From Clostridiales bacterium (lineage in GTDB: Bacteria > Bacillota > Clostridia > Christensenellales > Aristaeellaceae), in assembly GCA_017569285.1 (NCBI GenBank), contig CP069419.1:2108001-2172000 (forward strand): a stretch of 64,000 nucleotides of DNA, written 5' to 3'. Made by a program: the position numbers and the translations under genes. Positions within the stretch are counted from its first letter, which is position 1; each line of letters begins with the position of its first letter. Shown here in pieces: positions 23,920 through 50,674 of the stretch. The notes below the pieces were generated by a model. The model saw nothing but the letters and a program-made list of their open reading frames with translations. It did no database searches and was not told where the DNA came from.

Positions 23920-23949
23920 CAACCGGGAGACAGGAAAAAGAGATATCAC

Positions 23950-25236: not shown

Positions 25237-25272
25237 ACTATAATATTTGACTGCCTCTGAAAGGATTGCTTT

Positions 25273-26373: not shown

Positions 26374-26391
26374 ACAAAGGATGGAAAGCCT

Positions 26392-27315: not shown

Positions 27316-27317
27316 TA

Positions 27318-28451: not shown

Positions 28452-28479
28452 TTTCACAACAGAAAAGGAAGAGAATGAT

Positions 28480-30935: not shown

Positions 30936-31036
30936 AAGACAAAATTTCATTATGCCATCATGCTTATCTAAAAGGATATATAGTTCACCCAATGAAATAT
31001 TAGCATAAAGGAGAAAAGCATATAAAGGATCAATAT

Positions 31037-32251: not shown

Positions 32252-32332
32252 ATATGCAATTACAAGTAGGGGAAAAAATTATCTAAGAAAATAAAAAGAA
32301 CAAATCTATATAGGGGAATGGGGGAATAATAC

Positions 32333-33604: not shown

Positions 33605-33638
33605 CTATTTTGTTGAAGAAATAGGAGATAATCTTAAG

Positions 33639-35755: not shown

Positions 35756-35759
35756 AGGA

Positions 35760-36908
35760 ATGTCTTCTGTATTTGATGTAATAAAACTGATATTCTGGAA
35801 CAGTGAGAAAGTAACTGTGGACCGGGATACATATGATGTGCTGGCATATCATATGATTGATGCCCTGGCAGCATCTGCACTTTCACGGATTGAAATGCCT
35901 GACGATTTGCGGATGGAATGGAAGACCAGCATAATGCGGCAGGTTGTGTATAATGCACAGGTTAATTATGTGCAGAATCATCTACCCATTACTGTGCCTT
36001 ATGTAGTCTTAAAAGGATCATCTGCCGCTCAGTATTATCCCTATCCGGAATACCGGATAATTGGCGATATCGATATTATTACACGAAGAGAGGATTTTGA
36101 TCAGGCATATCAGGAATTGCTGCAAGGTGGATTTGTTATTTCCAAAGAACTGGACCGGGAAGTGGGCTTTCTTAAAAACGATGTGTTGGCTGAGCTGCAC
36201 CGGTTTTTCGCGTCACTGAATGATCCGAAACAGGCGAAGTATATGGATGATCTGATTATAGAGAACATTGGTTCATCTCATATGCTTCCTGATGATATCA
36301 ACGGACTTGTTTTGTTGGAACATATCAATCAACATTTGGAACGTGGTCTTGGGCTTCGCCAGATTATCGACTGGATGATGTTTGTTGATAAATGTTTGCC
36401 GGATGAAAAATGGCTGTCGTTTCAGAATTATGCGAAAGCAATAGGGCTTGATTCGCTGGCAATTGTTGCGACCAGGATGTGCGAATTGTATCTGGGGCTT
36501 CCGCACAGGGAATGGTGCAGCCGGGCAGATGAAAAACTGTGTAAGCAGTTGATGGATTATATCCTGGCTTGCGGAAATTTCGGGAATGTGCGTTCTGAGA
36601 ATATTGGTACAGGAGAAAATGTCTTTTACTTTGGCAGTACTCCCAAATCCATGCTTGGTCTTCTGACAGATCGGGGCATGGCGAACTGGAAAGCGGCTCA
36701 GAAGCATGCAATTTTACGGCCGTTTGCATGGATATATCAGACGGTCAGATACATCAAGAGAGGCCTGAGCAGGGCGGATGCAACGGCAGAAATAAAGAAG
36801 GAGCATAAAGCAGCAAAACAAAGAATCAAGATGTTTAAAGCATTAGGTGTAAGGCAATCCACCAAAGGACTTGCTGTGTACAAAAACGGGAAATATATTA
36901 AAGAATAG
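35760..36908 (+). CDS. nucleotidyltransferase family protein (NTP_transf_5-like)
   Basis: 382 residues. VVLKGSSAAQYYPYPEYRIIGDIDI contains the GD-x-D catalytic pair (Asp103, Asp105) of the uncharacterised nucleotidyltransferase family; GLVLLEHINQHLERGLGLRQIIDWMMF is its conserved helical part. Relatives occur beside HprK-like kinases and PqqD domains, and in some lasso-peptide clusters they modify a phosphorylated peptide tail. The HprK-like/PqqD fusion lies 8 kb downstream (45073). Whether this protein serves the polysaccharide or the peptide pathway is open. AAAGG precedes ATG 35760, four bases after the aminotransferase stop. Confidence 0.75.
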   Translation: MSSVFDVIKLIFWNSEKVTVDRDTYDVLAYHMIDALAASALSRIEMPDDLRMEWKTSIMRQVVYNAQVNYVQNHLPITVPYVVLKGSSAAQYYPYPEYRIIGDIDIITRREDFDQAYQELLQGGFVISKELDREVGFLKNDVLAELHRFFASLNDPKQAKYMDDLIIENIGSSHMLPDDINGLVLLEHINQHLERGLGLRQIIDWMMFVDKCLPDEKWLSFQNYAKAIGLDSLAIVATRMCELYLGLPHREWCSRADEKLCKQLMDYILACGNFGNVRSENIGTGENVFYFGSTPKSMLGLLTDRGMANWKAAQKHAILRPFAWIYQTVRYIKRGLSRADATAEIKKEHKAAKQRIKMFKALGVRQSTKGLAVYKNGKYIKE

Positions 36909-36928
36909 TTTCTTTGAGGCGGATTCTT

Positions 36929-38380
36929 ATGAAGAATTGCATAGAGATAAAGAAGCTGTTATTGCCGGCAATAATGATTCTTTTTGTAATTGTTTCAATC
37001 ATGATATTGATGCTACAGGCAGCTCCGGGGAAATCGCAGGACAGAGCAGTTACTCTGAAACAAAGAATAACCAGGGAAGATAATACAGAAAGAATAGATT
37101 ATCTAGATGAGAACGGTAATTTAACAGTAGCGGCTGATCTTGGGTATGCGACAATAATCAAATTCAAAGGCGAAAAATACAGAGTTGAACATTTCTACGA
37201 TGATCAAGGCAAGCCGGTCAGTTTATATCCGGGTTATTATGCACTGCGTAAGGAAATCAATGAGGCAGGGTATATCTATCATATAACATATCTCGATCAA
37301 AATGATATGCCTGTAATAACAAAAGAAGAGTATTCTGATAAGTATCTAACATTCTATGATACGGGGAAGATTAAGACTGAAAAGTATTATGACACATCAG
37401 GGAATCCTGTATTTACTTCTACATTTGGCTGCGGATACCTGAATGAATATGATGAAAATGGGAGAAACTATAAAACCACTTATCTGGATGAAGAAGATCG
37501 TCCGGCTGTTGTGGGTTTGGGGTATGCGATGATTCTCAGAAATTTCTACGAAACTGAAAGTCCGTACTATGGAAAACCAGAGAGTGAGTTCTATTTTGAT
37601 GAGAATGGGAAACCGAAAGCACTCTCCCTGGGACAGTATGGAGTGCATAAAGAATACGATGAAAACGGCCAGATGGCTGTTCTGACATATTTGGATGAAG
37701 AAGGGAAACCAATTATTACCAGAAAAGGATATACGACAATTGTCAGAAGCTACCACGCTGATAACAGAGTGGCTACCGAGCAATATTATGATATTGATGG
37801 CAATCCATTTTCGCTTAGTGAAGGACAGTATGGAATAAAGCAGGAAGACAATCAGTTGTCATATCTGGATCAGAATGGAAATGAGGCATTCAACCTCAAA
37901 AGATTTCTGTATAACAAAGCGTGGATTATTATCCCCGGTGCATTGGTTATAGTGATTCTTTCTGCAATGATGAACCGTAAACTGAACGCTGTTTTACTCC
38001 TGCTGTATATTACTGTTATCATCTATATGACGCTGGTTTATCGGGAGAATGCAAGAGGACAGACAGGCGGTTTGCTATGGCAGTATAGAAGATTGTTGAC
38101 GGATCATGATGCCAGAACAGGAATTATTCGAAATATCTGGCTGTTTATTCCTCTCGGGGCAATACTGTATCGGATTAAACCAAAGGGCTGGATGTTATTG
38201 GTTCCGATTGTGTTCAGTATTCTGATTGAAGTGATACAAAGTTTGTTAGGAATTGGATTTTGTGAACTGGATGATATTTTCAGCAATTCCCTTGGCGGGC
38301 TTATTGGGTTTGGAATGGAAAAACTGTTATTCGAACAAAAAGACATTTTGTTCAATAAAAGTTTAAAATTTGGAAAATGA
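36929..38380 (+). CDS. repeat-domain protein fused to a VanZ-like membrane domain
   Basis: 483 residues: an N-terminal membrane segment (about 8-30), an outward-facing region (about 45-325) of roughly eight repeats of the same YDxxGN / YLDxxGxPV / GYA type seen in the giant protein at 5909, then four membrane segments forming a VanZ-like domain (WLFIPLGAIL, then GFCELDDIFSNSLGGLIGF). VanZ confers low-level teicoplanin resistance by an unknown route; VanZ-like domains occur in many cell-envelope proteins. The shared repeats suggest physical contact with the giant protein or the same ligand, with VanZ as anchor. GAGG before ATG 36929 sets the start. Confidence 0.82.
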   Translation: MKNCIEIKKLLLPAIMILFVIVSIMILMLQAAPGKSQDRAVTLKQRITREDNTERIDYLDENGNLTVAADLGYATIIKFKGEKYRVEHFYDDQGKPVSLYPGYYALRKEINEAGYIYHITYLDQNDMPVITKEEYSDKYLTFYDTGKIKTEKYYDTSGNPVFTSTFGCGYLNEYDENGRNYKTTYLDEEDRPAVVGLGYAMILRNFYETESPYYGKPESEFYFDENGKPKALSLGQYGVHKEYDENGQMAVLTYLDEEGKPIITRKGYTTIVRSYHADNRVATEQYYDIDGNPFSLSEGQYGIKQEDNQLSYLDQNGNEAFNLKRFLYNKAWIIIPGALVIVILSAMMNRKLNAVLLLLYITVIIYMTLVYRENARGQTGGLLWQYRRLLTDHDARTGIIRNIWLFIPLGAILYRIKPKGWMLLVPIVFSILIEVIQSLLGIGFCELDDIFSNSLGGLIGFGMEKLLFEQKDILFNKSLKFGK

Positions 38381-38405
38381 AATAACAGGGATGGTTTGAT
38401 AAGAA

Positions 38406-39482
38406 ATGAAGACACCGATTGATCTGAATGGCAAAACGATTCTGGTAACCGGAAGTCCCGGATTTATTGGGGCGAATCTGGTGCTTCGCCTTTTGCGGGA
38501 AATGACAGGCGGAATGATCATCAGTTTTGACAACATGAATGATTATTATGATCCGCAGTTGAAAGAATATCGGCTTGGTCTGATTGAGAAAGCCGCAAAG
38601 AGTTCACGGGTCCAGCATGCTTTTGTCAAAGGGTCGATTGCGGATAAGGAACTGGTTGATCATGTTTTCGAAACCTATCATCCGGCGGTTGTGGTCAATC
38701 TGGCGGCCCAGGCGGGTGTGCGCTATTCTATTGATCATCCGGATGTATATATCGAAAGCAACCTGATCGGATTCTTTAACATTCTGGAAGCCTGTAGGCA
38801 TTATCCTGTGGAACACCTGGTATATGCTTCTTCCTCTTCTGTTTACGGTGGAAACAAGAAGGTACCGTTCAGCACAGATGACAAGGTAGACAATCCGGTA
38901 TCACTGTATGCAGCGACTAAAAAGAGCAATGAATTGTTGGCACACAGCTACTCGAAGCTATATAACATTCCTTCTACCGGCTTGAGATTCTTTACGGTAT
39001 ATGGACCTGCCGGTCGTCCGGATATGTTCTATTTCTCTGCGACGCAGAAGCTGGTTGCGGGAAAAACAATCCAGATATTCAACTACGGTAACTGCAAGCG
39101 GGACTTTACATTCGTGGATGATATTGTCGAGGGAGTATACCGCGTAATGCAGGGCGCTCCGGAAAAGACGACAGGGGAGGACGGACTGCCCATTCCGCCT
39201 TATGCCGTGTATAACATTGGCGGAGGGACACCGGAAAACCTGTTGGATTATATTTCCACACTCCAGGAAGAACTGGTCCGGGCGAAAGTTTTGCCGGAAG
39301 ATTATGATTTTGAAGGGCATCGGGAATTGGTTCCCATGCAGCCGGGGGATGTGCCGGTGACTTATGCAGACTCCACAGGCTTGGAAAAAGACTATGGCTT
39401 TAAGCCGACAATCGGAATCCGGGAAGGCCTGAGGGCGTTCGCAGAGTGGTACAAGGAGTATTACGGTAAAGAAAAAGCATGA
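38406..39482 (+). CDS. UDP-glucuronate 4-epimerase
   Basis: 358-residue extended SDR enzyme converting UDP-glucuronate to UDP-galacturonate. GSPGFIG is the NAD loop, FDNMNDYYDPQLKEYRL and AAQAGVRYSIDHPDVY are specific to this epimerase group, and SLYAATKKSNELLAHSYS carries the YxxxK pair. Its substrate would come from the convergent UDP-glucose dehydrogenase immediately downstream. Last gene of the long operon; a bidirectional terminator follows. Confidence 0.9.
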   Translation: MKTPIDLNGKTILVTGSPGFIGANLVLRLLREMTGGMIISFDNMNDYYDPQLKEYRLGLIEKAAKSSRVQHAFVKGSIADKELVDHVFETYHPAVVVNLAAQAGVRYSIDHPDVYIESNLIGFFNILEACRHYPVEHLVYASSSSVYGGNKKVPFSTDDKVDNPVSLYAATKKSNELLAHSYSKLYNIPSTGLRFFTVYGPAGRPDMFYFSATQKLVAGKTIQIFNYGNCKRDFTFVDDIVEGVYRVMQGAPEKTTGEDGLPIPPYAVYNIGGGTPENLLDYISTLQEELVRAKVLPEDYDFEGHRELVPMQPGDVPVTYADSTGLEKDYGFKPTIGIREGLRAFAEWYKEYYGKEKA

Positions 39483-39522: not shown

Positions 39523-40989
39523 TTAGTCACGGCGGAACAGATCACGGGTGTAGACCTTGCTGACAACATCGTCCAGGCAGGTGTCATAGCGGTTGGCGAT
39601 AATGGCATCGCTCTGCCGCTTGAACTTCCGGATATCATTAACTACCTTGCTTCCGAAAAATGTAGTACCGTCTTCCAGGGGTGGTTCGTAGATGATGACC
39701 GTGGCGCCTTTTGCCTTGATCCGTTTCATGACACCCTGGATGGAGCTCTGGCGGAAGTTGTCGGAATTGCTCTTCATAGTGAGGCGGAATACACCGATGA
39801 CCACTTTCTTTTCCTTGGATTCATCCCAGGAGTCATTGGCTTCATAGGCGCCGGCCAGTTCCAGCACACGGTCCGCAATGAAGTCCTTCCGGGTGCGGTT
39901 GCTTTCCACAATGGCAGTCATCATGTTCTGCGGAACGTTTTCGAAGTTGGCCAGCAACTGTTTGGTATCCTTAGGCAGGCAGTAACCGCCGTAGCCGAAG
40001 GATGGATTGTTGTAATGAGTCCCAATCCGGGGATCGAGGCAGACCCCCTGGATGATATCCCGGGTATTCAGACCCTTGGTTTCAGCATAGGTGTCCAGCT
40101 CATTGAAGTAGGAAACACGCAGGGCCAGGTAGGTATTGGCGAAGAGTTTGACAGCTTCTGCTTCCGTAAGGCCCATGAGCAGGACTTCGACTTCACGCTT
40201 CAGGGCAGCGGCCCGTAGCAACCCAGCGAAGATTTCTGCCTTTTCACGGGTGGCTTCGTCGCATCCGACAATGATCCGGCTGGGATACAGGTTATCGTAC
40301 AGGGCTTTGGATTCCCGCAGGAATTCCGGAGAGAACAGGATGTTCTGTGTATCGAACTTTTCACGTACGTGGGCCGTGTACCCAACCGGAATAGTACTTT
40401 TGATGACCATCATGGCATTGGGATTGGCTTTGAGAACGGTTTCAATGACATTCTCTACAGCGGAGGTATCGAAGAAATTCTTCTTCGGGTCGTAGTTGGT
40501 CGGTGCGGCGATCACCACAAACTCTGCGTTCCGGCAGGCGGATTCTCCGTCTAGTGTGGCGGTCAGATCCAGATCGGCCTTGGCAAAATGTTTTTCAATG
40601 TATTCATCCTGGATCGGACTGATGCGGCGGTTGACCATGTCTACTTTCTCCGAAACGATATCCACCAGTTTCACGTGGTGATGCCGGGCCAGCAGGGTGG
40701 CGATGGATAAACCGACGTATCCCGCACCGAAAACCGTGATGTTCCTTGGAACAACATGATTGAACACGGGGGGATTATATTCGATAAAAACATCGGTCAC
40801 ATCAAACTGAAGGGTGTTGGCCAGACGGGTGAGCTGGTCCAGGGAGGGAACATAATCCTGGTTTTCCAGGCGGCAAAGCATGGAACGGTTGATGCCTGCT
40901 TTGTCCGCAAGCTCTTGCTGCGTAAGGTTCAGCGCCTTTCGCTGAGCAAGAATGATCTCCGCCAGTTTAGAGATGGAGAAGTTTCTCAT
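39523..40989 (-). CDS. UDP-glucose/nucleotide-sugar 6-dehydrogenase with N-terminal XRE DNA-binding domain
   Basis: 488 residues. Residues about 6-62 form an XRE helix-turn-helix ([20 protein letters not shown], then [13 protein letters not shown]). After a short linker, [18 protein letters not shown] (about 83) starts a full UDP-glucose dehydrogenase: [48 protein letters not shown] and the catalytic Cys337 in [14 protein letters not shown]. It oxidises UDP-glucose to UDP-glucuronate, feeding the epimerase next door. Enzyme motifs look intact, so this may be a metabolic enzyme that also binds DNA. The start has GGAGGTG before ATG 40989, and a candidate operator lies at its promoter. Divergent from radical SAM gene 1. 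Confidence 0.9.
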
Positions 40990-41105: not shown

Positions 41106-42257
41106 ATGAAAGAACCGGTTAACGCATTTGAACTTCTGGATATTCTTCGGGAGCAGAATGGGAAAGAAATACAGCGCTTTGATAATGTTACTCGTTATCT
41201 GAGCATTAAAGCCCGCGAAAAAGGCGTTCCGATCAGTGGCCAGTTTGAGCTGACACCGCTGTGCAATTTCAGTTGCAAGATGTGTTATGTGCACCTGAAC
41301 GTTGATCAGTTGAATGATCGGAAGATTCTTTCTGTAGATACCTGGAAGGATCTGATGCATCAGGCCTGGGAAGCCGGAATGATGAATGCATCCTTGACTG
41401 GCGGAGAATGTCTGGCTTATCCGGGTTTTGATGAGCTGTTCCTGTATCTGCACAGTCTGGGATGTCAGGTTCTTGTTCTGACAAACGGATTCTTGCTGGA
41501 TGACAGAAGAATTCAGTTTTTCAGGGAGCATTGTCCAGCTGAGATTCATGTCACGCTGTATGGGTGGAATGACGATGTTTATGAACGTGTGACCGGAAAG
41601 CGCGCTTTCAGCAGGGTGATGGAGAATATCCGCAAGGCTATCGATGCCGGACTGCCAGTATCCATCAGTGTGACCCCCTGCAGTTTTCTTGGAGAGGATG
41701 TACTGGAAACAATTCGGGTTGCCAAGAGTCTGAAAAGAGCTGTAGCGGTCAACAATTCCATTTTTTCTCCACGGGCGGATACTGGGCGGGCTGAACAGAA
41801 GGATGATCCGGAAACGGATATGTACATCCGGATTTACCGGTTGATGAATGAAATGAACGGCAGGGAAATCCGGGAGATTGCAGCGGAGATGCTTCCCCCT
41901 GAATGTGGAAAGGACGTTGATGGAGAGAAACGAGGCCTTCAATGCGGCGGCGGACGATCCGGATTCGTCATTAACTGGGAAGGCACAATGATGCCATGTA
42001 ACCAGTTAGATATGATACAGGCATTCCCGTTGCAGGTAGGGATAAAGAAGGCGTGGGAAAAGGTAAACTTTGAAGCAAATAATTGGCCACGGTATTCCGG
42101 CTGCGATGGTTGTGCTTATGCCGAAGTATGTAACAAATGTGCAGGGAATCAGCTACGATTCGCAGAACCCGGGAAAAAGCCGGAGCAACTATGCGAACAG
42201 ACAAAGCGATTTGTTTGTAACGGTGTACGATATCTTCCGGACTTGGAATGCGATTAA
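41106..42257 (+). CDS. radical SAM/SPASM peptide maturase 1
   Basis: 383 residues. The [4Fe-4S]/SAM motif CNFSCKMC puts cysteines at 53, 57 and 60; SLTGGECLAYPGF is the GGE motif. The C-terminal SPASM/twitch region has QCGGG, MPCNQ and the cluster CDGCAYAEVCNKC (C-x2-C-x5-C-x2-C). Such enzymes install thioether, C-C or epimerised residues in ribosomal peptides. Two small peptide genes follow at once, the usual arrangement for a RiPP maturase and its precursors. No PqqD-like recognition domain is evident in the first 45 residues; a PqqD domain is supplied by the gene at 45073. It is highly similar to the enzyme at 49261 throughout. Confidence 0.9.
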   Translation: MKEPVNAFELLDILREQNGKEIQRFDNVTRYLSIKAREKGVPISGQFELTPLCNFSCKMCYVHLNVDQLNDRKILSVDTWKDLMHQAWEAGMMNASLTGGECLAYPGFDELFLYLHSLGCQVLVLTNGFLLDDRRIQFFREHCPAEIHVTLYGWNDDVYERVTGKRAFSRVMENIRKAIDAGLPVSISVTPCSFLGEDVLETIRVAKSLKRAVAVNNSIFSPRADTGRAEQKDDPETDMYIRIYRLMNEMNGREIREIAAEMLPPECGKDVDGEKRGLQCGGGRSGFVINWEGTMMPCNQLDMIQAFPLQVGIKKAWEKVNFEANNWPRYSGCDGCAYAEVCNKCAGNQLRFAEPGKKPEQLCEQTKRFVCNGVRYLPDLECD

Positions 42258-42347
42258 AGGTTTTGAATTGGCAGTTAACAAATTGTGATTCATCAGACTG
42301 GATTTCCAGGCTTGTGAATATATAAAAAATTATCGGAGGACAAAAAC

Positions 42348-42530
42348 ATGAAAAAAACGTATGAAGCTCCCAAGGTTGAAAAAGTGGTGTTTGACTACTC
42401 TGATGCTGTAGTAGCATCTAATACCAGCCTTTGCCACGATTTGGTTACCAGGACGGATGTAGCCAGGATTGGTGAGCCCAAATGTGAATCTACTCCTGTT
42501 TATTCTACCACTAATAATCTTGCGACCTAA
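42348..42530 (+). CDS. putative RiPP precursor peptide 1
   Basis: 60 residues with CGGAGGA before ATG 42348. The N-terminal 23 residues (MKKTYEAPKVEK, then FDYSDAVVAS) match the leaders of the peptides at 42569 and 50504, while the C-terminal part is unrelated in sequence and contains two cysteines (in SLCHD and PKCES) plus many Ser, Thr and Asp. A conserved leader with a variable core next to a radical SAM gene is what a modified-peptide precursor looks like. No peptide family name is known to me. Confidence 0.75.
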   Translation: MKKTYEAPKVEKVVFDYSDAVVASNTSLCHDLVTRTDVARIGEPKCESTPVYSTTNNLAT

Positions 42531-42568
42531 TAATCTATTTAATGTTAAGCGAAAGCGAAGAATCGAGA

Positions 42569-42784
42569 ATGAAGAAGCAGTACGAAGTGCCAAAGGCCGA
42601 GAAACTGGTATTTGACTATTCGGAATCGGTTGTGGCTTGTTATTCTCCCAAGCATTATTGCAATCAAGATCAGAACAATAATGTTAATCCCACGAATCCA
42701 CCGACAGAAGGATCATTAAAATACAACAATGATCCGAATGGACAATATTTTAAATGCCTGGCAACGTATTATTATAATTGCTGA
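42569..42784 (+). CDS. putative RiPP precursor peptide 2
   Basis: 71 residues. The leader MKKQYEVPKAEK then FDYSESVVAC is nearly that of peptide 1; the core is rich in Asn, Pro and Tyr and has four cysteines, the last at the C-terminus (YYYNC). ATG 42569 is chosen by alignment with the other peptides; its ribosome binding site is weak, so it may be translated by coupling to peptide 1, 38 bases upstream. A longer in-frame start at 42542 would add nine residues. Confidence 0.72.
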   Translation: MKKQYEVPKAEKLVFDYSESVVACYSPKHYCNQDQNNNVNPTNPPTEGSLKYNNDPNGQYFKCLATYYYNC

Positions 42785-42840
42785 CATTAAGAGACTGATG
42801 GATGAGTCAGGGAATCTGATGTATTAATTTGGATTGCAAA

Positions 42841-42869
42841 AAGGCATCTCTTTACGGGGATGTCTTTTT
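42841..42869 (+). terminator. terminator after the precursor genes
   Basis: AAGGCATCTC (42841-42850) pairs with GGGATGTCTT (42857-42866), with T at 42865-42869. It separates the precursor unit from the peptidase-exporter unit. A promoter for the next gene overlaps it. Confidence 0.65.
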
Positions 42870-42878
42870 GTGTATAAT
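42851..42878 (+). promoter_or_regulatory. candidate promoter of the peptidase-exporter operon
   Basis: TTTACG (42851-42856), 16 bases, TATAAT (42873-42878). The -35 lies in the loop of the preceding terminator. Confidence 0.45.
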
Positions 42879-42900
42879 AATATAATTAGGTGATTATGAA

Positions 42901-43353
42901 ATGAACAAGTCTTTGCCCATTCCGGAGTGGCATCAGATGGCGATGGAGGGAAATGCACCTCCGGTTCGGATTCCATTGAACGGATACAGTATGTTTCCGC
43001 TGATTCGTAAGGGTATTGATTACGTAACAATTGTTCCAGTGGACCGGCAATTGGTATTAGGAGATATTGTACTGTTTGCTGAGCCGGATAAGGGACGATA
43101 TGTCATGCATCGTGTATGGGAAATCCGGGATGGGCAGGTGCTGACCTGGGGAGATCATTGTGAAAAACCGGACAGATGGTGTAACACAGAGATGATCTGG
43201 GGCCGGGCAATATTGATTGAAAGAGATGGTAAGGAAATCCATCCAAATCCGAAATGGGGACTGAGATGGGCAAAATTCTGGCATAAGGCCAGAAAAGTAT
43301 ATGAGCGGTATGAAAAATTCAGGGGCGGAATGAATCGTTTGTTTAAAAAGTAA
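42901..43353 (+). CDS. soluble S26 (SipW-like) signal-peptidase-family protein
   Basis: 150 residues without membrane segments. PLNGYSMFPLIRKG places the nucleophile at Ser30; YVMHRVWEI puts His70 where most bacterial signal peptidases have Lys, the Ser-His pattern of SipW and eukaryotic SEC11; GQVLTWGDHCEKPD is the later conserved loop. Soluble relatives occur in peptide-modification and HprK-like/PqqD gene clusters. A role in cutting the leader from the small peptides is plausible but inferred. AGGTGAT precedes ATG 42901; the next gene follows within about 20 bases. Confidence 0.78.
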   Translation: MNKSLPIPEWHQMAMEGNAPPVRIPLNGYSMFPLIRKGIDYVTIVPVDRQLVLGDIVLFAEPDKGRYVMHRVWEIRDGQVLTWGDHCEKPDRWCNTEMIWGRAILIERDGKEIHPNPKWGLRWAKFWHKARKVYERYEKFRGGMNRLFKK

Positions 43354-43369
43354 TCAGGTGAGGTTTCAG

Positions 43370-45100
43370 GTGAAGATCAATCTTGAAGATTTCCAAAAAC
43401 TGAAAAAGATTTTCAAGAGCCCTGCCATGGTTCAGGTGTTCCGGTGGTCGAAATGTGTCCACAGCAAGGTCGTCTGGATCTGTATTTTGCAGGTGACAAT
43501 GGTTTTATGTTCACTTGCTTTAACCCTTGTAACAAAAGAACTGATAGATGCGGCAGTTTCCTCCAGACCGGATGGGTTGTGGAAGTTTGGAATTGCGTTG
43601 CTGTTGCTGATGCTGGCTGAAATTGCAATCAGCTATATTTCTTCATTGGTACGGGTGCATGCTTCTGCCAACCTGCAGCGCAGTTTGCAGGGAACGTTGA
43701 TCCGGGACATCCTGACCAAAGAATATGCTTCGCTGAAAACCTATCACAGCGGAGAATTGGTAAACCGGGTATTCTCCGATGCGGGAACGGTTCGCGGCGG
43801 GGTACTTGGAATTCTGCCAAGTATTCTCAGTATAATGGTCAGTTTTATCGGTGCGGCGGCGATTCTGATTGCACTGGATTGGCGCTTTGTGTTGCTGCTG
43901 GCAGTGGCTGGCGTGATTGGTATCATTATCGTGCTGCTGTTCCGGAGACCCATGAAGGATCGATATAAGCGGATGCATGAAGCGGAAGATAAGCTGCATG
44001 CCGTGATCCAGGAATCTTTCGGAAATATCCGACTGATCAAAGCAAGCCTGTCGGAAGGACGTATCATGCGCCAGATTGACAGCCGGCAGGAAACGATGGA
44101 AAAAGAACAGATCCGGCAAGGGAAGTTCTCCGCCATCATGAATAACAGCATGGGTGTGATGTTCGATTTTTCCTGGTTGTTTTGTATGCTGTGGGGCTGC
44201 GCGGCAATCTTCCGGGGAGAATTGACATATGGATCCCTGGCAGCTATGATCCAGCTGATTGGCCGGGTTCAGGGCCCGATTGCCAGTGCGGTTGGGATTG
44301 CAACTGAAGTCTATGGAGTAACGGCTGCAGCGGAGAGACTGATGGCATTAACCGATCTTCCGTCGGAAACAACCGGTGAGACGCTGAAAGATTTTGATGA
44401 AATCAATGTGGATCATGTGACATTCCGGTATGATGATGGAATGGATGATGTGCTGCGGGATATCAGCTGCAAGATTCAGAAAGGTGAATTTGTTGCATTA
44501 ACCGGAACCTCCGGCGGTGGGAAATCCTCCCTGTTCCAGCTTTTACTGGGAATTTATAATCCAACTTCCGGTAAAGTGGCTTACCGGACCGGAAGTATGG
44601 AGACACCAGCCTGTAGGGAAACTCGTTCCTTGTTTGCATATGTACCTCAGGGGAATACATTGTTCTCAGGCACACTTCGTGAGAACCTGACCATGTTTAC
44701 AGATGATGCCACAGATGCCGAGATTGATCAGGCACTCCGCACCGCCTGTATTGATGATATGGCGGCGGAAATTGGACTTGACGTGGAACTTGGCGAACGT
44801 GGTGTTGGAATTTCCGAAGGTCAGGCACAACGTGTGGCTGTTGCCAGGGCTTTATTGACCCGGGCACCGATTCTGTTGTTGGATGAATCTACCAGCGCCC
44901 TGGATGAAGACACGGAAGCACGGATGCTGCAGAATATCTCCGCAATGCGGGAAAAGACTTGCTTGATCGTCACACATCGCCGGGCGGCACTTTCCATCTG
45001 TGATTATCAACTGCACCTGAAAGAGGGTAGAATGGAGAAAAGGGCAGCGCTGGCATCGGATAAGGAGGAACTATGTATTACTACAGAATTGCAGAAGTAA
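43370..45100 (+). CDS. ABC exporter (membrane and ATPase fused)
   Basis: 576 residues: six membrane segments (about 30-310) then a nucleotide-binding domain with Walker A GTSGGGKSS, Q-loop YVPQGNT, Walker B ILLLDESTSALDE and switch THRR. The signature motif reads ISEGQAQRV instead of LSGGQ, an unusual change in a catalytic loop. No C39 peptidase domain is present, so leader cleavage must come from elsewhere, perhaps the S26-type protein upstream. Probable export of the modified peptide. GTG 43370 is preferred over GTG 43358 because GAGG lies six bases upstream. The 3' end overlaps the kinase gene by 28 bases. Confidence 0.85.
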   Translation: MKINLEDFQKLKKIFKSPAMVQVFRWSKCVHSKVVWICILQVTMVLCSLALTLVTKELIDAAVSSRPDGLWKFGIALLLLMLAEIAISYISSLVRVHASANLQRSLQGTLIRDILTKEYASLKTYHSGELVNRVFSDAGTVRGGVLGILPSILSIMVSFIGAAAILIALDWRFVLLLAVAGVIGIIIVLLFRRPMKDRYKRMHEAEDKLHAVIQESFGNIRLIKASLSEGRIMRQIDSRQETMEKEQIRQGKFSAIMNNSMGVMFDFSWLFCMLWGCAAIFRGELTYGSLAAMIQLIGRVQGPIASAVGIATEVYGVTAAAERLMALTDLPSETTGETLKDFDEINVDHVTFRYDDGMDDVLRDISCKIQKGEFVALTGTSGGGKSSLFQLLLGIYNPTSGKVAYRTGSMETPACRETRSLFAYVPQGNTLFSGTLRENLTMFTDDATDAEIDQALRTACIDDMAAEIGLDVELGERGVGISEGQAQRVAVARALLTRAPILLLDESTSALDEDTEARMLQNISAMREKTCLIVTHRRAALSICDYQLHLKEGRMEKRAALASDKEELCITTELQK

Positions 45101-46164
45101 CGCTTCAGTCTGCTTACCAGTTGAAATGTTTTGAAGCGTTTGCCTGTGAACCGGCAGAGGCTGACATATTCCTGGAAGGAACAGATGAACTGCCGGCACA
45201 AGGCAAGGAACTGCGTTCGGGGGCTGTTGTACATCGGAAATTGCCAGAAGGATGGTATTTCTTTCCCCCGAATTATGAACAGTCTGGGTTGTTTATCAGC
45301 AACGATTATTCGCATCTGAGGATACGGAAAATTCCAAAGGATGAAATTGTTGCAGGGATGGCAGAATGGTTCGTTCGTATTGCAGTGGAATGTATGCTGG
45401 CTCGCAGGGGATATGTATCATTGCATTCTGCATCTGTGGAAGTAGATGGGATAGCTTATGCTTTTACTGCACCTTCCGGTACCGGCAAGTCTACCCGGGC
45501 GGAGGCCTGGATTGACGCATTGGGAGCGAAATTGATAAGCGGCGACCGTCCGCTGATTGATGTGCGAAATATGGAACTATATGGTGTTCCGTGGGACGGC
45601 AAAGAGCAATGCTTCAGGAACGTTCATTATCCGCTGAAAGCAATCTGTGAGGTGCGTCGTGCCGGATCAGTGTATATTCGTGAAATGAGTTATGCTCAGC
45701 GACGCAAAGTGCTTATGCAGCAGTGCTTTATCCCGATGTGGGATACAGAAACCGCAGCGCTCCAAATTGCCAATATAAACAAATTGGCAATGAAGGCCAA
45801 TATGGTTCGCATATTCTGCGGACCAACAACAGAGGATGCTCAGGCACTGTATAGTGACCTTCAAAAGCATGAATACCTGAAGGAGGAAAAGGACATGAAA
45901 GCAAATCCTGGATTTATTCTCAGAAATGTGGTGGACGAGTATATCCTGATGCCCACAGGGGACAACATCGGTAAGTTCAATGGCACCGTCCTGCTGAACG
46001 AAGTTTCTGCCCTGGTATGGGAGAAACTGCAGAATCCCATTTCCCGGGAAGACCTGCTGAAGGCGATCCTGGATGAGTTTGAAGTGGAGAAAGCAGTTGC
46101 CGCGGCAGACCTGGATGCGCTGCTTGCGAAACTGAAGGAGTACGGCGTAATCTCGGAAGACTGA
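45073..46164 (+). CDS. HprK-like kinase fused to a PqqD domain
   Basis: 363 residues. Residues 1 to about 265 resemble HprK-related kinases of the HPr-rel-A type: YVSLHSASVEVDGIAYAF leads into the P-loop APSGTGKST (about 133-141), then KLISGDRPLIDV and the late VRRAGSVYIREMS. From about 275 a PqqD domain follows (FILRNVVDEYILMPTG, LNEVSALVWEKL). PqqD domains bind peptide leaders and present them to radical SAM enzymes. The fusion could phosphorylate the bound peptide or another partner. AAGGAGGA before ATG 45073 gives a strong start inside the exporter gene. An internal strong start gives a free PqqD (next entry). Confidence 0.82.
   Translation: MYYYRIAEVTLQSAYQLKCFEAFACEPAEADIFLEGTDELPAQGKELRSGAVVHRKLPEGWYFFPPNYEQSGLFISNDYSHLRIRKIPKDEIVAGMAEWFVRIAVECMLARRGYVSLHSASVEVDGIAYAFTAPSGTGKSTRAEAWIDALGAKLISGDRPLIDVRNMELYGVPWDGKEQCFRNVHYPLKAICEVRRAGSVYIREMSYAQRRKVLMQQCFIPMWDTETAALQIANINKLAMKANMVRIFCGPTTEDAQALYSDLQKHEYLKEEKDMKANPGFILRNVVDEYILMPTGDNIGKFNGTVLLNEVSALVWEKLQNPISREDLLKAILDEFEVEKAVAAADLDALLAKLKEYGVISED
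45895..46164 (+). CDS. possible internally started free PqqD-domain protein
   Basis: Inside the kinase-PqqD gene, AAGGAGG (45880-45886) stands eight bases before an in-frame ATG at 45895, exactly at the domain border. Translation from there gives an 89-residue stand-alone PqqD of the usual family size. It may be a real second product, or the trace of a recent gene fusion. Confidence 0.5.
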   Translation: MKANPGFILRNVVDEYILMPTGDNIGKFNGTVLLNEVSALVWEKLQNPISREDLLKAILDEFEVEKAVAAADLDALLAKLKEYGVISED

Positions 46165-46198
46165 CCGGATGCGTCTGCTCTGGCAACAGAGTTAAGGC

Positions 46199-46900
46199 AT
46201 GAGAACAATTATCATTGGTGATATACATGGGTGCCATTCGGCACTTCTACAGCTGCTCGAACGGGTAAAACCGGAAGTGGGGCAGGACTGTTTGGTTTTG
46301 CTGGGAGACCTGTTTGATCGCGGACCGGATTCCCGGGAAGTGTTCCGGGATGTACAGCAACTGGCGTCTGCCTTCGAGGATAACTTTGTCCTGCTGCTGG
46401 GCAACCATGAGGATTATTTGCTGCAGTCGCACCTGACACTGCGGCAGAGAAAGATCTGGGAGGCTGTAGGACGGCAGGCAACGGTACGTTCTTTTGATGA
46501 AGCCGGGGAAAGAATGGAAGACGCGGCTCCCTGGCTGAAGGAACATTGTCAGCTTTTCTGGAAAGCCGACAGGTTTCAGTGCATCCATGCCGGAATCCTG
46601 GTGGATCCTCCGGAAGTGAATGATCTGCAGACACTGGTGCATGACCATGGAATTGTACTGGAGAATCGATATACCGGCCCGCTGACGATTACAGGGCATA
46701 TTGCCTTGGAGAAGGCAACATGGTTTGCCGGGGATGGAGAAACCGTTGTGGAACTGGAAGACGATCTGGTATATCGTTTGCCGGATACCGGGGTGATCTG
46801 CATTGATACCGGGTGCGGAAAAGGCGGACGGCTGACTGCCATGGTCATTGATGGTGAAGAATATACATTGATGAGTGTAGATGAACAAGGTATGCACTGA
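46199..46900 (+). CDS. PPP-family serine/threonine phosphatase-like protein
   Basis: 233 residues with the metallophosphatase motifs IIGDIHGC (GDxHG), LLGDLFDRGPDS (GDxxDRG), LLLGNHEDYLL (GNHE) and ITGHIAL. Close to bacterial PrpA/PrpE and lambda phosphatase, which remove phosphate from proteins or cleave dinucleoside polyphosphates. It lies 34 bases after the HprK-like kinase gene, which suggests it reverses that kinase's action; this is inference. The ribosome binding site is weak (TTAAGG right at the start). Confidence 0.8.
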   Translation: MRTIIIGDIHGCHSALLQLLERVKPEVGQDCLVLLGDLFDRGPDSREVFRDVQQLASAFEDNFVLLLGNHEDYLLQSHLTLRQRKIWEAVGRQATVRSFDEAGERMEDAAPWLKEHCQLFWKADRFQCIHAGILVDPPEVNDLQTLVHDHGIVLENRYTGPLTITGHIALEKATWFAGDGETVVELEDDLVYRLPDTGVICIDTGCGKGGRLTAMVIDGEEYTLMSVDEQGMH

Positions 46901-46917
46901 TTGAACAGCTGCATATC

Positions 46918-46952
46918 AAAAAGCTATGGAACAGTAGTTCCATAGCTTTTTT
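46918..46952. terminator. bidirectional intrinsic terminator
   Basis: A 12-base perfect stem (46921-46932 with 46937-46948), loop AGTA, preceded by A residues and followed by six T. It serves the phosphatase operon and the convergent GGDEF gene. Confidence 0.9.
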
Positions 46953-46967
46953 GTTGCCATTTTCGTT

Positions 46968-48746
46968 TTATTCTTCTTCTTTCGTTTTATTGGCCAGTGC
47001 TTCAGTAAGGTTCTTCTGCAGCCGTGCAAGCTCGAGAACGTGCTGGACACGGAGGACCAGAATCTCGGGGGAGAAGGGCTTCTGGATGAAGTCCACGGCG
47101 CCCATTCGCAGGCACTGGGATTCGGCTTCCGGCCGGGATACGGCGGTCAGGATGATGACCGGGGGAACCTTGCCGGCCATTTCACGCTTTAGCTTGCGGA
47201 AGGTTTCAATACCGTCCATATCCGGCATGATCAGATCCAGCAGGATCAGGTTCGGAGTACGTTCCTTGACCAGTTCCAACAGTTTCTCGCCGGAGTCGAG
47301 AGTGACAACGTCCAGGTCCTGTTCGGTCAGGAAATGCTCCGCCAGCTTCAGGCTGGCTGGGTTGTCATCCACAACAACCACCAATTCATTGCCATCTTTG
47401 CCGTCGGGAGATTTGGTAGTGGGATGAACCGGGGCGTATTCGGTAGTGACGGTTACCTCAGCTGCCAGTTCGGATTTGTTCCATTTATCCATCAAGCGGT
47501 TGATGACCTTCTCGATGTTATATTCAGTCACTTCCGGCAGGAGAAGGAACAGCTGGTGTTCTCCGCATTCCATCATGACGTCGCTGTTGCGCAGGGAATT
47601 CCGAATCGTGGACTTGAATGCCACGATGATTTCCGCCCGCCTGGCGTCATCCAGTTCCGGACCGGCCTTGACGGTCAGCAGTGCCCGGTAGGCACAGTTG
47701 TGATACCGGTTGATATAGCGGACCATGTACTTGTAGATGCTGCCGAATACTTCACGGCCCATCCACATGGCACTGGGAGCTTCAATCCGTTCCTCCAGGA
47801 TAGCGGTGATCGTCTCCAGGTCCATTTCCTTGTTGTTCTGGTTCTGCTGGCCTTCCGAAGTGGAATACAGCCGGCATCCATGTTTCCCATTCCGCTTGAC
47901 GATATACAGGGACTGGTCAGCCAGGTGGAACAGTTCGGCGTAGTCCCGGCCGTATGTGGGAACAAATACCGCACCAATGGATACGCCAATGGAGAAATTC
48001 AGGCGGTCACCGAGAATGAGTTTCGCACCGGCAATATATTCCTCATTGATTTTCTGGGAGAACCGGGAAAGGTCTTCGCTTCGTTTCTGGTTACGCAGGA
48101 AGACAATGAATTCATCTCCGCCGATCCGGCCGCTTTCGGACGGGTATTCCAGGTTATTGGCAATGATCTTGGCAAACATGACCAGGATCCGGTCGCCCAC
48201 ATCATGGCCGAACACGTCATTGACAGACTTGAATCCGTCCAGGTCCAGCACGCACAGGAAACCGGTTTCCTGCAGGCAGAGACGGGTCATGGTGGCTTCG
48301 GCGGCAGCCTTGTTCAGGCAGCCGGTCAGCGGGTCGGTTTCTGCTGTTTTGACGATCTTGTTCATCTGGGACTGGACGTCCAGGATTTTCTTCACACGGC
48401 TGACAAGGACTTCCGGGCTGAAGGGTTTCCGGATATAGTCCATGGCACCGGATTCCAGTCCCCGGGCTTCCTGGTCATTCCGTTCTTCTGCAGTGAGGAA
48501 AGCAACCGGGACTTCCTTGCCGGGTTCCATTTCCTTCTTCAGCAGGTCCAGGGTATGGAAACCGTCCAGATCCGGCATATTGATATCCAGCAGGAACAGA
48601 TCGGGAACACCATGCTCCTTCACATAGTCCAGTGCCAGACGGCCGGACTGGAGCGCAGTCACCCGGAAACCTGCTTTGCTCAGGAAATGTCCCGCCAGCT
48701 TCAGGGTGCTGACGTCATCATCCACAACGATAATCCAGTTTGCCAT
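46968..48746 (-). CDS. response regulator with REC, GGDEF, degenerate GGDEF-like and REC domains
   Basis: 592 residues. REC1 (about 1-120) has VVDDD, LFLLDINMPD and YIRKPFSP. A diguanylate cyclase domain (about 140-300) has an intact RIGGDEF signature (about 206-212). A third region (about 330-440: VAFKSTIRNSLRNSD, ECGEHQLFLLLPE) looks like a GGDEF fold that lost its motif. A second full receiver follows (about 460-575: VVVDDN, LILLDLIMPDMDG, FIQKPFSPE). It should make cyclic di-GMP under double phosphorylation control, relevant to surface polysaccharide. No kinase gene is adjacent; the hybrid kinases at both window ends are candidates. Own promoter at 48824-48853. Confidence 0.88.
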   Translation of the reverse strand: MANWIIVVDDDVSTLKLAGHFLSKAGFRVTALQSGRLALDYVKEHGVPDLFLLDINMPDLDGFHTLDLLKKEMEPGKEVPVAFLTAEERNDQEARGLESGAMDYIRKPFSPEVLVSRVKKILDVQSQMNKIVKTAETDPLTGCLNKAAAEATMTRLCLQETGFLCVLDLDGFKSVNDVFGHDVGDRILVMFAKIIANNLEYPSESGRIGGDEFIVFLRNQKRSEDLSRFSQKINEEYIAGAKLILGDRLNFSIGVSIGAVFVPTYGRDYAELFHLADQSLYIVKRNGKHGCRLYSTSEGQQNQNNKEMDLETITAILEERIEAPSAMWMGREVFGSIYKYMVRYINRYHNCAYRALLTVKAGPELDDARRAEIIVAFKSTIRNSLRNSDVMMECGEHQLFLLLPEVTEYNIEKVINRLMDKWNKSELAAEVTVTTEYAPVHPTTKSPDGKDGNELVVVVDDNPASLKLAEHFLTEQDLDVVTLDSGEKLLELVKERTPNLILLDLIMPDMDGIETFRKLKREMAGKVPPVIILTAVSRPEAESQCLRMGAVDFIQKPFSPEILVLRVQHVLELARLQKNLTEALANKTKEEE

Positions 48747-48823
48747 TTGTTATGATCCTCTCTGTATTGCAAGTCGTGTCTGGGAAGAATCATGGAAAAG
48801 GCTGAAAGCCTTAATCTGTCTGA

Positions 48824-48853
48824 ATTATATCATACATAATGAAAAACAGGCAA
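48824..48853 (-). promoter_or_regulatory. promoter of the GGDEF response regulator
   Basis: Minus-strand TTGCCT (48853-48848), 18 bases, TATAAT (48829-48824) preceded by TGA. Confidence 0.6.
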
Positions 48854-49196
48854 TACAAGGCCAGATGGTTTTCGTGGATACAATCCAGTGTTATTCGAAT
48901 GAGGATGAAGATGATACTCTGAGCAACAAAATGAGAGATAGAACGTCTATGTGTATAAAAATCAGAATTTTATTAAATAAATGGATAGTAGAACACCAAA
49001 AAACAATCTAAATACAAAACGAGAAAAATCGAAGGGCTAGTGTTTGATGAAAATGATTGCATTTATTGTAGTTGCGGCACAAAGACCTTTTGGTATTGTT
49101 GGAACAATAATGAAAATTGCGATAGCGAAAGATGAAATTGTCATATAAACAATCACATAATGTGCTTAATAGCAACAAATTAGAGCTAAGTAACCG
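48854..49196. other. AT-rich intergenic stretch with no recognised gene
   Basis: Only short frames are present, including a 33-codon frame at 49047-49148 with a poor ribosome binding site. Composition is AT-richer than the surroundings. Nothing else is supportable here apart from the promoters at either side. Confidence 0.5.
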
Positions 49197-49225
49197 TTTA
49201 CTTTTGGCGAAATAACCTATACAAT
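49197..49225 (+). promoter_or_regulatory. promoter of radical SAM operon 2
   Basis: TTTACT (49197-49202), 17 bases, TACAAT (49220-49225). Same -35, same extension (TTTACTTTT) and spacing as the promoter at 41042. Confidence 0.65.
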
Positions 49226-49260
49226 GTCATCATGGAGAACAAAACGGGAAGGAAATATAG

Positions 49261-50406
49261 ATGGGGCAGCCGGCAAACGGTCTCGAATATCTGGCTCAAT
49301 TACGAGAAGAATATGGTATACAAACGCCAAATTATCAGGATGTTTCCAGTTTTCTTGAAGCGAAGGCCCAGAAAAAGGGAGTTCCGTTTTCGGGAATATT
49401 TGAACTGACTCCCCTTTGCAACCTGAACTGTAAGATGTGCTATGTTCACATGATGCCGGAGCAGTTCAAAGGACATTCTGTTCTTCCTGTTTCAGTCTGG
49501 AAGGATCTGATGCATCAGGCTTGGGAAGCGGGCATGTTTAGGGCAACTCTGAGTGGGGGAGAATGCCTGGCTTATCCGGGCTTTGAGGAACTGTATCTTT
49601 ATCTTCACAGCCTCGGGTGCGAGGTGAAAATCCTGACGAACGGACTCCTGCTGGACGACAAACAGATTCAATTTTTCAAGGAGCATAGGGTTGCAGATAT
49701 TCAGGTTACGATATACGGATGGAACGATGAAGTATATGAGCGGGTAACGGGCAAGAGAGCCTTTGAGAGTGTTTCCCGGAATATCAGGAAGGCTGTCGAA
49801 GCTGGACTTCCGGTGAGAGTCAGTACAACTCCCAGCATATATCTTGGTGAAGATCTTCTGGAAACGATTCGGGTTGGAAAAACACTTTGCAGGAACATGG
49901 AGTTTAATAGTGGATTGCTTGTACCAAGAGAAGAGACGGGTCGGTCAGAACAGCAGGATGATGTTGACCTGGATCTTTATATCCGGGCTTATCGTCTGAT
50001 TAATGAACTGAACGGGAAAGAGAACCGGGAGATTTCTCCTGATCTTCTTCCGGTTCCGGGAGGACCTTCTCATGACTGTTCGGAATGCGGCCTGAATTGC
50101 TCGGCCGGTCGTTCGTTTTTCGCTATTGACTGGAAAGGAACCATGCGGGCCTGTGTACGGCTTGATATGGTTCTGGGGTATCCCCTGGAAGAAGGCTTTA
50201 CTGCCGCATGGAAGCGAATGAACCAATGGGCAACCGGTTTTCCGAAAGTACCAGAATGTGATGGGTGCGCATATGAAGAAGTCTGCGGGAACTGCGTTGG
50301 AGATATGCTTCTATATGCTGAGCCCGGAAAACAGCCCAAGGGCCTTTGTGAACGGACCAAACGGATGGTTCAGAACGGGATATGGCGTATTCCGGAGTGC
50401 GAGTGA
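49261..50406 (+). CDS. radical SAM/SPASM peptide maturase 2
   Basis: 381 residues, a clear paralogue of the enzyme at 41106. CNLNCKMC gives cysteines 53, 57 and 60, at the same positions; TLSGGECLAYPGF is the GGE motif; CDGCAYEEVCGNC repeats the C-x2-C-x5-C-x2-C pattern, with extra cysteines in HDCSECGLNCSAGR. The active-site half is almost identical to the first enzyme (DLMHQAWEAGM, VYERVTGKRAF), while the substrate-facing middle differs more. Followed by one precursor-like gene, so each enzyme seems to have its own peptide or peptides. RBS GGAAGG before ATG 49261. Confidence 0.9.
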   Translation: MGQPANGLEYLAQLREEYGIQTPNYQDVSSFLEAKAQKKGVPFSGIFELTPLCNLNCKMCYVHMMPEQFKGHSVLPVSVWKDLMHQAWEAGMFRATLSGGECLAYPGFEELYLYLHSLGCEVKILTNGLLLDDKQIQFFKEHRVADIQVTIYGWNDEVYERVTGKRAFESVSRNIRKAVEAGLPVRVSTTPSIYLGEDLLETIRVGKTLCRNMEFNSGLLVPREETGRSEQQDDVDLDLYIRAYRLINELNGKENREISPDLLPVPGGPSHDCSECGLNCSAGRSFFAIDWKGTMRACVRLDMVLGYPLEEGFTAAWKRMNQWATGFPKVPECDGCAYEEVCGNCVGDMLLYAEPGKQPKGLCERTKRMVQNGIWRIPECE

Positions 50407-50503
50407 AGTGATTTGTGCCGGATGGCATAAGAAAAGAGGACACTCTTCGGTGTGATCTGAGGATCTCCCGATTTGTGAATAAAAAAATAGGAGGAAAAGC
50501 CAA

Positions 50504-50674
50504 ATGAAAAAACAGTATGCTGCCCCTGAAGCTGAAAAGGTTATGTTCAGCTACGAAACGAATGTGGTCGCTTCCGGTTACGTGAAATGTCCCGGTGTTA
50601 CCAAGTACAATGGCATTCCGAATCCGCCCGTCCTGGAAGAAGCTTGCCCCAAAGACAAGAAGTATAAGGGATAA
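50504..50674 (+). CDS. putative RiPP precursor peptide 3
   Basis: 56 residues read directly from the sequence. AGGAGG lies nine bases before ATG 50504. The leader MKKQYAAPEAEK then FSYETNVVAS matches peptides 1 and 2; the core has two cysteines (YVKCPG and EEACPK), a GIPNPP turn and a lysine-rich end (KDKKYKG). A terminator follows at once, so it is the last gene of radical SAM operon 2. Confidence 0.75.
   Translation: MKKQYAAPEAEKVMFSYETNVVASGYVKCPGVTKYNGIPNPPVLEEACPKDKKYKG

Follow-up and report, generated by a model that had tools for sequence, protein, structure and literature searches.

A putative RiPP system with radical SAM maturases and an HprK-like kinase, probably arranged as a hub with dispersed satellites, in a Clostridiales genome

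Introduction

Can one set of accessory proteins serve several peptide-modifying enzymes, including some that are encoded far away in the same genome? The question is raised by a locus in the window analysed here, a stretch of 64,000 nucleotides (C1:2108001-2172000) from the 3.27 Mb genome of a Clostridiales bacterium, which is assembled in two contigs and is 97% complete. There, two radical S-adenosylmethionine (SAM) enzymes with SPASM domains (rSAM1 and rSAM2), each followed by small genes for putative precursor peptides, are found with a soluble S26-type peptidase, an ABC exporter, an HprK-like kinase fused to a PqqD domain and a PPP-family phosphatase (Table 1). All these genes had been named in an initial annotation of the window and were recovered in their places; the accessory genes do lie between both radical SAM genes, as it described, with the amendment that a gene on the opposite strand, for a REC-GGDEF-REC protein, also intervenes before rSAM2. 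Judged from sequence, the locus appears to combine the general features of systems for ribosomally synthesized and post-translationally modified peptides (RiPPs), that is, a conserved leader, a variable core, an adjoining modifying enzyme and a RiPP recognition element (RRE). We consider it probable, at roughly 0.7, that this is a RiPP factory organized as a hub with satellites, in which a single set of kinase-RRE, peptidase and exporter serves several pairs of radical SAM enzyme and precursor.

Results

A conserved leader is linked to the radical SAM genes

The three small peptides of the window share the motif MKKxYxxPxxEKxxFxYxxxVVA, in agreement with the earlier proposal that the small genes after each radical SAM gene carry one leader. 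For comparison, we scanned the contigs of named genomes and kept the best 80 of 173 relatives, amounting to 79 distinct loci, whose records are labelled as Clostridia, Prevotella and other Bacteroidales, Coriobacteriia and Synergistaceae and are mostly metagenome-assembled. Linkage was counted over 82 loci, of which many lie on short contigs and 29 are flanked by 5 kb at either end; the window and its two satellites (see below) belong to these 29. The counts leave out nine short loci from the window's own genome (L001-L006 and L088-L090), which are copies of included stretches and two weak radical SAM matches.

A hidden Markov model (HMM) of the leader, seeded with the five leaders of the own genome and refined on its own matches regardless of their position, was run on 23013 small open reading frames from the 82 loci (threshold E ≤ 1e-4). 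It retrieved 88 matches, 85 of them sharing the strand of a related radical SAM gene no more than 1.5 kb away; by comparison, 3276 of the 23013 small frames fall within the same distance and orientation, the related loci not being independent. The linkage of leader and radical SAM gene is thus far beyond chance, and the leader is real. Likewise, the expectation that the leader should recur beside homologous enzymes in other genomes was borne out, because 66 of the 82 loci have a leader gene within 5 kb of the enzyme.

We compared 94 anchored precursors, taking the Tyr of the leader as position 1. Excluded were leader matches more than 1.5 kb from a radical SAM gene, of which two are distinct (L058 and L017), and one precursor for which anchoring failed. 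The relatedness of the sequences means that the following are not independent counts. Position 1 is Y in 91 precursors and F in three, position 4 is P in 93, position 11 is F in 90, and all 94 have V, I, L, M, A or T at position 17. A small residue occupies position 19 in 81, and a Ser falls within positions 19-22 in 90. From position 20 onward the median length is 32 residues; at least two core Cys occur in 82 precursors, with exactly two Cys in 61. Mean identity in sampled pairs is 0.45 for leaders vs 0.24 for cores. Neither the window precursors nor the four others that were tested matched any Pfam or NCBIfam family.

The radical SAM enzymes form a family of four in the genome

Both window enzymes match Pfam Radical_SAM and are 57% identical over 383 aligned columns without internal gaps. 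The identical cysteine spacing first noted in them is confirmed by this ungapped alignment, where ten Cys columns are in register (C53, C57, C60, C280, C298, C333, C336, C342, C345 and C363). As for their being two paralogues, the pair exists in the window, but the genome holds four strong relatives in total (at 2149106, 2157261, 2254523 and 2819691); two further matches (E 3e-4 and 7e-4) fall outside the family by score. In the enzyme tree, rSAM1 pairs with the hub enzyme of a genome from the same genus (L124 in G007; support 99/88), and rSAM2 is sister to the enzyme of a distant satellite in the own genome (L086; support 100/99), so the window enzymes are not mutual closest kin. In L019 (9266-11128), an HprK-like kinase domain with a P-loop is fused to the N-terminus of a radical SAM/SPASM enzyme, and L020 shows the same arrangement. 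A role in anti-phage defence was considered and rejected, since PADLOC matched rSAM1 to nothing but the radical SAM portion of prokaryotic viperins (E 6.7e-14 and 9.8e-9).

A classical sactipeptide or ranthipeptide system, in which the kinase and the phosphatase would play an incidental or regulatory part, is in our view rather unlikely. As with the maturases SkfB, AlbA and PapB, a radical SAM/SPASM enzyme stands beside a Cys-containing precursor; the best solved-structure match of rSAM1 is the sactisynthase SkfB (E 3.4e-14), Cys makes up 6.8% of the cores, and the prevalence of cores with at least two Cys fits a product with Cys thioethers. Unlike in those systems, however, a separate RRE-kinase and an S26 peptidase are present, rSAM1 stays far under the NCBIfam cut-offs of SkfB (57 vs 300 bits), AlbA (53.2 vs 850) and PapB (35.7 vs 340), and an HprK gene is nearby in 22 of the 29 fully flanked loci, with its P-loop kept.

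Proteins of the hub

The S26 protein matches signal peptidase I (TIGR02228) below the cut-off, with 42.4 vs 51.85 bits, and a search of its sequence against solved structures gave no useful match. In its structural model (pLDDT 93.6) the closest fold is that of the human Sec11-type signal peptidase at E 1.6e-3, no match having reached E 1e-3. Its catalytic residues are conserved across relatives (Ser30 in 52 of 53, His70 and Asp85 in 53 of 53), and Asp91 is kept in at least 90% of 20 sequences; no clear membrane segment was found, the best 19-residue hydropathy being 1.49. The exporter carries the Pfam domains ABC_membrane and ABC_tran, with no C39 peptidase domain in the Pfam scan, and matches MsbA (TIGR02203) at E 1.5e-70 and 238 bits, under the equivalog cut-off of 602.

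The HprK assignment combines a weak NCBIfam match (E 7.4e-6), a conserved P-loop and Asp, and the PEPCK/HprK fold of the modelled fusion protein (pLDDT 92.9), which matches PEPCK at E 3.8e-6 and HPr kinase at E 1.4e-3. His104, the P-loop Lys125 and Asp144, in the numbering of the aligned stretch, are kept in 67 of 67 sequences. Residues 289-360 match Pfam PqqD (PF05402), and this domain folds like the lasso peptide RRE TbiB1, for which a structure together with its leader is available (target TM 0.79). The RRE is fused to the kinase in the window; L007, L012 and L016, among other members, have it as a separate protein. Finally, the phosphatase, which matches Pfam Metallophos, is an optional extra of the system, occurring in four of the 82 loci plus L124. 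A match between its C-terminus and chains with WD-40 repeats lacked any stretch that passed and was disregarded.

The hub genes accompany the radical SAM genes in other bacteria. Among the 29 fully flanked loci, we found the leader in 26, PqqD in 23, HprK and S26 in 22 each, the ABC exporter in 17 and the phosphatase in three; over all 82 loci, PqqD occurs in 66, HprK in 58, S26 in 53 and the exporter in 25. Outside the own genome, matches lie within 5 kb of the radical SAM gene rather than beyond it for HprK (68 vs 1), PqqD (75 vs 4) and S26 (54 vs 0), with approximate binomial p values, which ignore relatedness, of 3e-13, 1e-11 and 9e-12, respectively. Additionally, in a set of 100 genomes from the same genus, family or order, the own genome included, the radical SAM enzyme (at 1e-60) was found in 16, HprK-PqqD (at 1e-40) in nine and both in eight (Fisher p 5.7e-7). 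Prevotella ruminicola KHT3 (L059) has a compact Bacteroidales version, with radical SAM, precursor, PqqD, S26 and HprK genes, that is a possible experimental model.

A single copy of the hub genes and several satellites

All five leader peptides of the own genome lie beside its four radical SAM genes; a sixth match (E 0.05), inside a frame of 551 residues, is not credible. Two of the radical SAM-precursor pairs are satellites, separated from the kinase gene by 100 and 666 kb, and in the 19 kb around each we found, of the genes of the system, just the radical SAM gene and the precursor. Both satellite frames are open and retain the leader. The same genome contains only one HprK-PqqD protein, one PqqD domain (PF05402) and one S26 peptidase of this type for the four radical SAM genes, a copy number that agrees with the earlier suggestion that accessory genes are shared.

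Dispersed pairs are also found in relatives. G007 (the same as G052), from the same genus, has a hub that repeats the gene order of the window (radical SAM, precursor, S26, ABC exporter and HprK-PqqD, with the phosphatase 3 kb on) and three satellites; it yielded one HprK-PqqD and no second match. Likewise, G017 contains a hub and three satellites, and G003 a hub and one satellite.

Several observations weigh against a shared hub or against the uniformity of the system. Sixteen of the 82 loci have no leader within 5 kb of the radical SAM gene, and L132, on a 6.1 kb contig, has a radical SAM gene and no leader match; 12 of the 94 cores have fewer than two Cys, and some leaders of Prevotella type (MAHSG, MAYSG) misfit V-x-A at the cut. 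Half of the 16 genomes with the radical SAM enzyme have no fused HprK-PqqD at 1e-40, a threshold below which split versions could score. As to the satellites, G007 is just 62% complete, the satellite of G003 is at a contig end, and the radical SAM gene of one G017 satellite (L134) is split over two frames. Outside the hub, G003 and G017 also carry additional, weaker matches to HprK and PqqD, which their satellites could use, and these two genomes therefore attest dispersed cassettes and not a single hub; among the three relatives with hub and satellites, only G007 is without a second kinase/PqqD set. Finally, G004 (the same as G058; 89% complete) has two radical SAM-leader loci (L010 and L131) and no HprK-PqqD at 1e-10, owing either to genome incompleteness or to a real exception, and PF05402 may overlook other types of RRE.

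The G004 satellites without a detectable hub, the extra matches in G003 and G017 and the split gene would also fit an alternative without any shared hub, where each satellite has an unrecognised RRE of its own, relies on another kinase/PqqD set, or is a remnant. We hold this to be unlikely, because the satellite frames of the own genome are open and have their leader, and no second PqqD or HprK-PqqD was found there.

Core types recur among species

Several core types were found in different species. Variants of the DVGRGRGRGGGCDGVPYHRN core occur in a satellite of the own genome (L087) and in L017-L019, L021 and L022; the core NNDPNGQY[YF]KC in window precursor 2, L007 and L008; WWKCETR in L008, L010 and L121; and DASHC in L122 and L131. 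When core labels were placed on the radical SAM tree they required 13 changes, vs a shuffled mean of 24.9, and none of 200 shuffles was as low; the core types were set by eye for this test, and near-copies contribute to the clustering signal. The DVGRGRGRGGGC cores do not belong to one radical SAM clade, as the own-genome copy lies elsewhere on the tree, at an unresolved fork. Two identical tails were dropped from the core comparison.

The type DVGRGRGRGGGCDGVPYHRNxRTFSSGRNSGC is closely similar across species, being present in L017 (three precursors), L018, L019, L021, L022 and L087 (8617-8838), with small changes in L017, L018 and L021.

Layout of the locus and its neighbourhood

The start codon of precursor 2, at 42569, was picked by leader homology (Table 1). 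Terminator-like sites number 10 vs 9.3 expected and promoter-like sites 19 vs 13.9 expected, and for this reason we make no claim on operon boundaries.

Just upstream of the hub ends an exopolysaccharide or capsule locus (22966-39479) with genes for glycosyltransferases, a weak O-antigen-ligase-like match, a flippase and PGA_cap, as well as DegT aminotransferase, ATP-grasp and ornithine cyclodeaminase-like genes. A protein with a VanZ-like domain and a weak MORN-repeat match is encoded at 36914-38377, and a protein that unites a UDP-glucose/GDP-mannose dehydrogenase with an N-terminal helix-turn-helix is encoded on the minus strand at 39526-40989.

Table 1. Genes of the putative RiPP system and associated features, in window positions.
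Feature	Position	Strand	Evidence and remarks
Radical SAM/SPASM maturase 1 (rSAM1), 383 aa	41106..42257	+	Pfam Radical_SAM; alignment; tree
Precursor 1, 60 aa	42348..42530	+	Leader ~42348-42416; predicted cut VVA|SNTSLC; 2 core Cys
Precursor 2, 71 aa	42569..42784	+	Predicted cut VVA|CYSPKHYC; core with NNDPNGQY[YF]KC
Soluble S26/Sec11-SipW-type leader peptidase, 150 aa	42901..43353	+	Ser30, His70, Asp85, Asp91
MsbA-type ABC exporter, 580 aa	43358..45100	+	Pfam and NCBIfam
HprK-like kinase with fused C-terminal PqqD/RRE domain, 363 aa	45073..46164	+	Pfam, NCBIfam, model
PPP-family metallophosphatase, 233 aa	46199..46900	+	Motifs GDIHG, GDLFDRG, GNHE
REC-GGDEF-REC protein (two receiver domains and GGDEF)	46968-48746	-	Parts rSAM2 from the hub
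Radical SAM/SPASM maturase 2 (rSAM2), 381 aa	49261..50406	+	Pfam Radical_SAM; alignment; tree
Precursor 3, 56 aa	50504..50674	+	Predicted cut VVA|SGYVKC; 2 core Cys
NTP_transf_5 nucleotidyltransferase (PF14907)	35760..36905	+	Possible further member of the system, membership uncertain

Discussion

A possible mechanism

In a factory with a hub and satellites, the RRE (the PqqD domain of the kinase fusion) would bind the YxxP segment of a leader of about 23 residues, and each radical SAM/SPASM enzyme would modify the variable core of the adjoining precursor. A thioether cross-link would be the most likely core chemistry, because the cores are rich in paired Cys and SkfB is the best solved relative of rSAM1. 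The HprK-like kinase is predicted, by analogy with a phosphopeptide system discussed below, to phosphorylate the conserved Ser just past the leader; cleavage at VVA|S by the soluble S26 peptidase would follow, and the product would leave the cell through the ABC pump, which has no peptidase domain. More speculatively, the phosphatase may take the phosphate off. The satellites at 100 and 666 kb would use the same hub, as suggested by the finding of no other hub copy in the genome.

A broader and only tentative view is that of a modular RiPP network, where one hub is combined with dispersed plug-in cassettes of radical SAM enzyme and core, so that products are gained per cassette and not per whole cluster; the kinase mark on the Ser of the cut site might license cleavage after the radical step, and the phosphatase, where present, might erase it.

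Relation to known systems

Among the matches listed in a search of open-licence full-text literature, no account joins a radical SAM enzyme, an HprK-like kinase and this peptidase. The nearest described system is that of the linear polyphosphorylated peptides (LPP) of Popov et al. 2026 (PMC13381572), and we read the present system as its radical-SAM sister. The initial annotation knew of no class with this combination, which holds in part: peptidase, RRE, HprK-like kinase and MsbA exporter are together in LPP (PMC13381572), with which neither the leader nor the radical SAM enzymes are shared. Both systems share a SipW/Sec11-type peptidase, an RRE, an HprK-like kinase, an MsbA-like exporter, a YxxP leader with variable cores and polysaccharide neighbours, exopolysaccharide genes being a reported setting of LPP (PMC13381572); an NTP transferase may be a further common component. 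The LPP peptidase is an archaeal-type signal peptidase I with Ser, His and Asp, matched here by the catalytic residues and the Sec11-like fold of the S26 protein. This enzyme, LppS, requires the RRE, loses activity on changing Ser29, His68 or Asp93, and cuts the unphosphorylated precursor poorly, and the kinase LppK phosphorylates Ser3 of the core (PMC13381572).

The differences are also clear. Radical SAM/SPASM maturases (four in the genome), Cys-rich cores, dispersed satellites and, sometimes, a PPP phosphatase are found here, unlike in LPP, and the RRE, discrete in LPP, is fused to the kinase in the window; the main text on LPP does not mention radical SAM (PMC13381572). The leader, YExPxxEKxxFxY...VVAS, has only YxxP in common with the YxxPxVLxHQxIxFETxxS of LPP, and, while LPP is described as restricted to Bacillota (PMC13381572), relatives of the present system are also in records labelled outside this phylum.

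The likeness raises the alternative of a plain LPP system, with phosphorylation as the main modification and radical SAM enzymes that are secondary or act on another substrate. Besides the shared proteins and the adjoining exopolysaccharide locus, it could draw on the NTP_transf_5 gene, a further component of the LPP and paeninodin kind, which lies 4.2 kb upstream of rSAM1; for 21 of the 22 matches to this family outside the window, a related radical SAM gene is no more than 5 kb away, the model having been seeded from such neighbours. We nevertheless find it quite unlikely, because the leader differs past YxxP, leader genes track radical SAM genes (85/88) even in satellites without a nearby kinase, the kinase is fused to a radical SAM enzyme in L019, and core type clusters on the radical SAM tree. 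Paeninodin-type phosphorylated lasso peptides share the HprK-like kinase, RRE, ABC exporter and, possibly, the NTP transferase (PMC13381572). A lasso peptide was rejected, as the ten proteins at the locus gave no Pfam match to a lasso cyclase or B2 peptidase.

To our knowledge, the S26 peptidase, the exporter and the phosphatase are not part of the SynChlorMet cassette. That cassette resembles our locus in having two radical SAM/SPASM proteins, a PqqD-like protein and the HprK-like ScmC (NCBIfam TIGR04248-TIGR04251), but scores here are below the cut-offs for ScmC (19.4 vs 125 bits) and ScmD (14.4 vs 100) in the kinase fusion and for ScmE (41 vs 400) and ScmF (52.8 vs 400) in rSAM1. A cofactor or other non-exported pathway, such as PQQ, mycofactocin or SynChlorMet, is very unlikely: rSAM1 has its best NCBIfam match in PqqE, and a Prevotella kinase and radical SAM enzyme match ScmC (E 7.7e-13) and ScmF (E 6.8e-19), but the window scores are far under the cut-offs, the cores are diverse, unlike an invariant cofactor precursor, and the hub has an ABC exporter. 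Membership in the PQQ or mycofactocin systems was rejected for missing components as well as for scores below cut-off.

Significance

The system would join radical SAM modification and phosphopeptide chemistry of the HprK type in one widespread gut and rumen system. Its surprising feature is the proposed shared hub, which suggests that not every RiPP cluster is self-contained; cluster mining would miss satellite pairs of radical SAM enzyme and precursor whose RRE, kinase, peptidase and exporter are borrowed from a distant locus. Such peptides could be found simply through their conserved leader, and a single hub would allow a clean genetic test.

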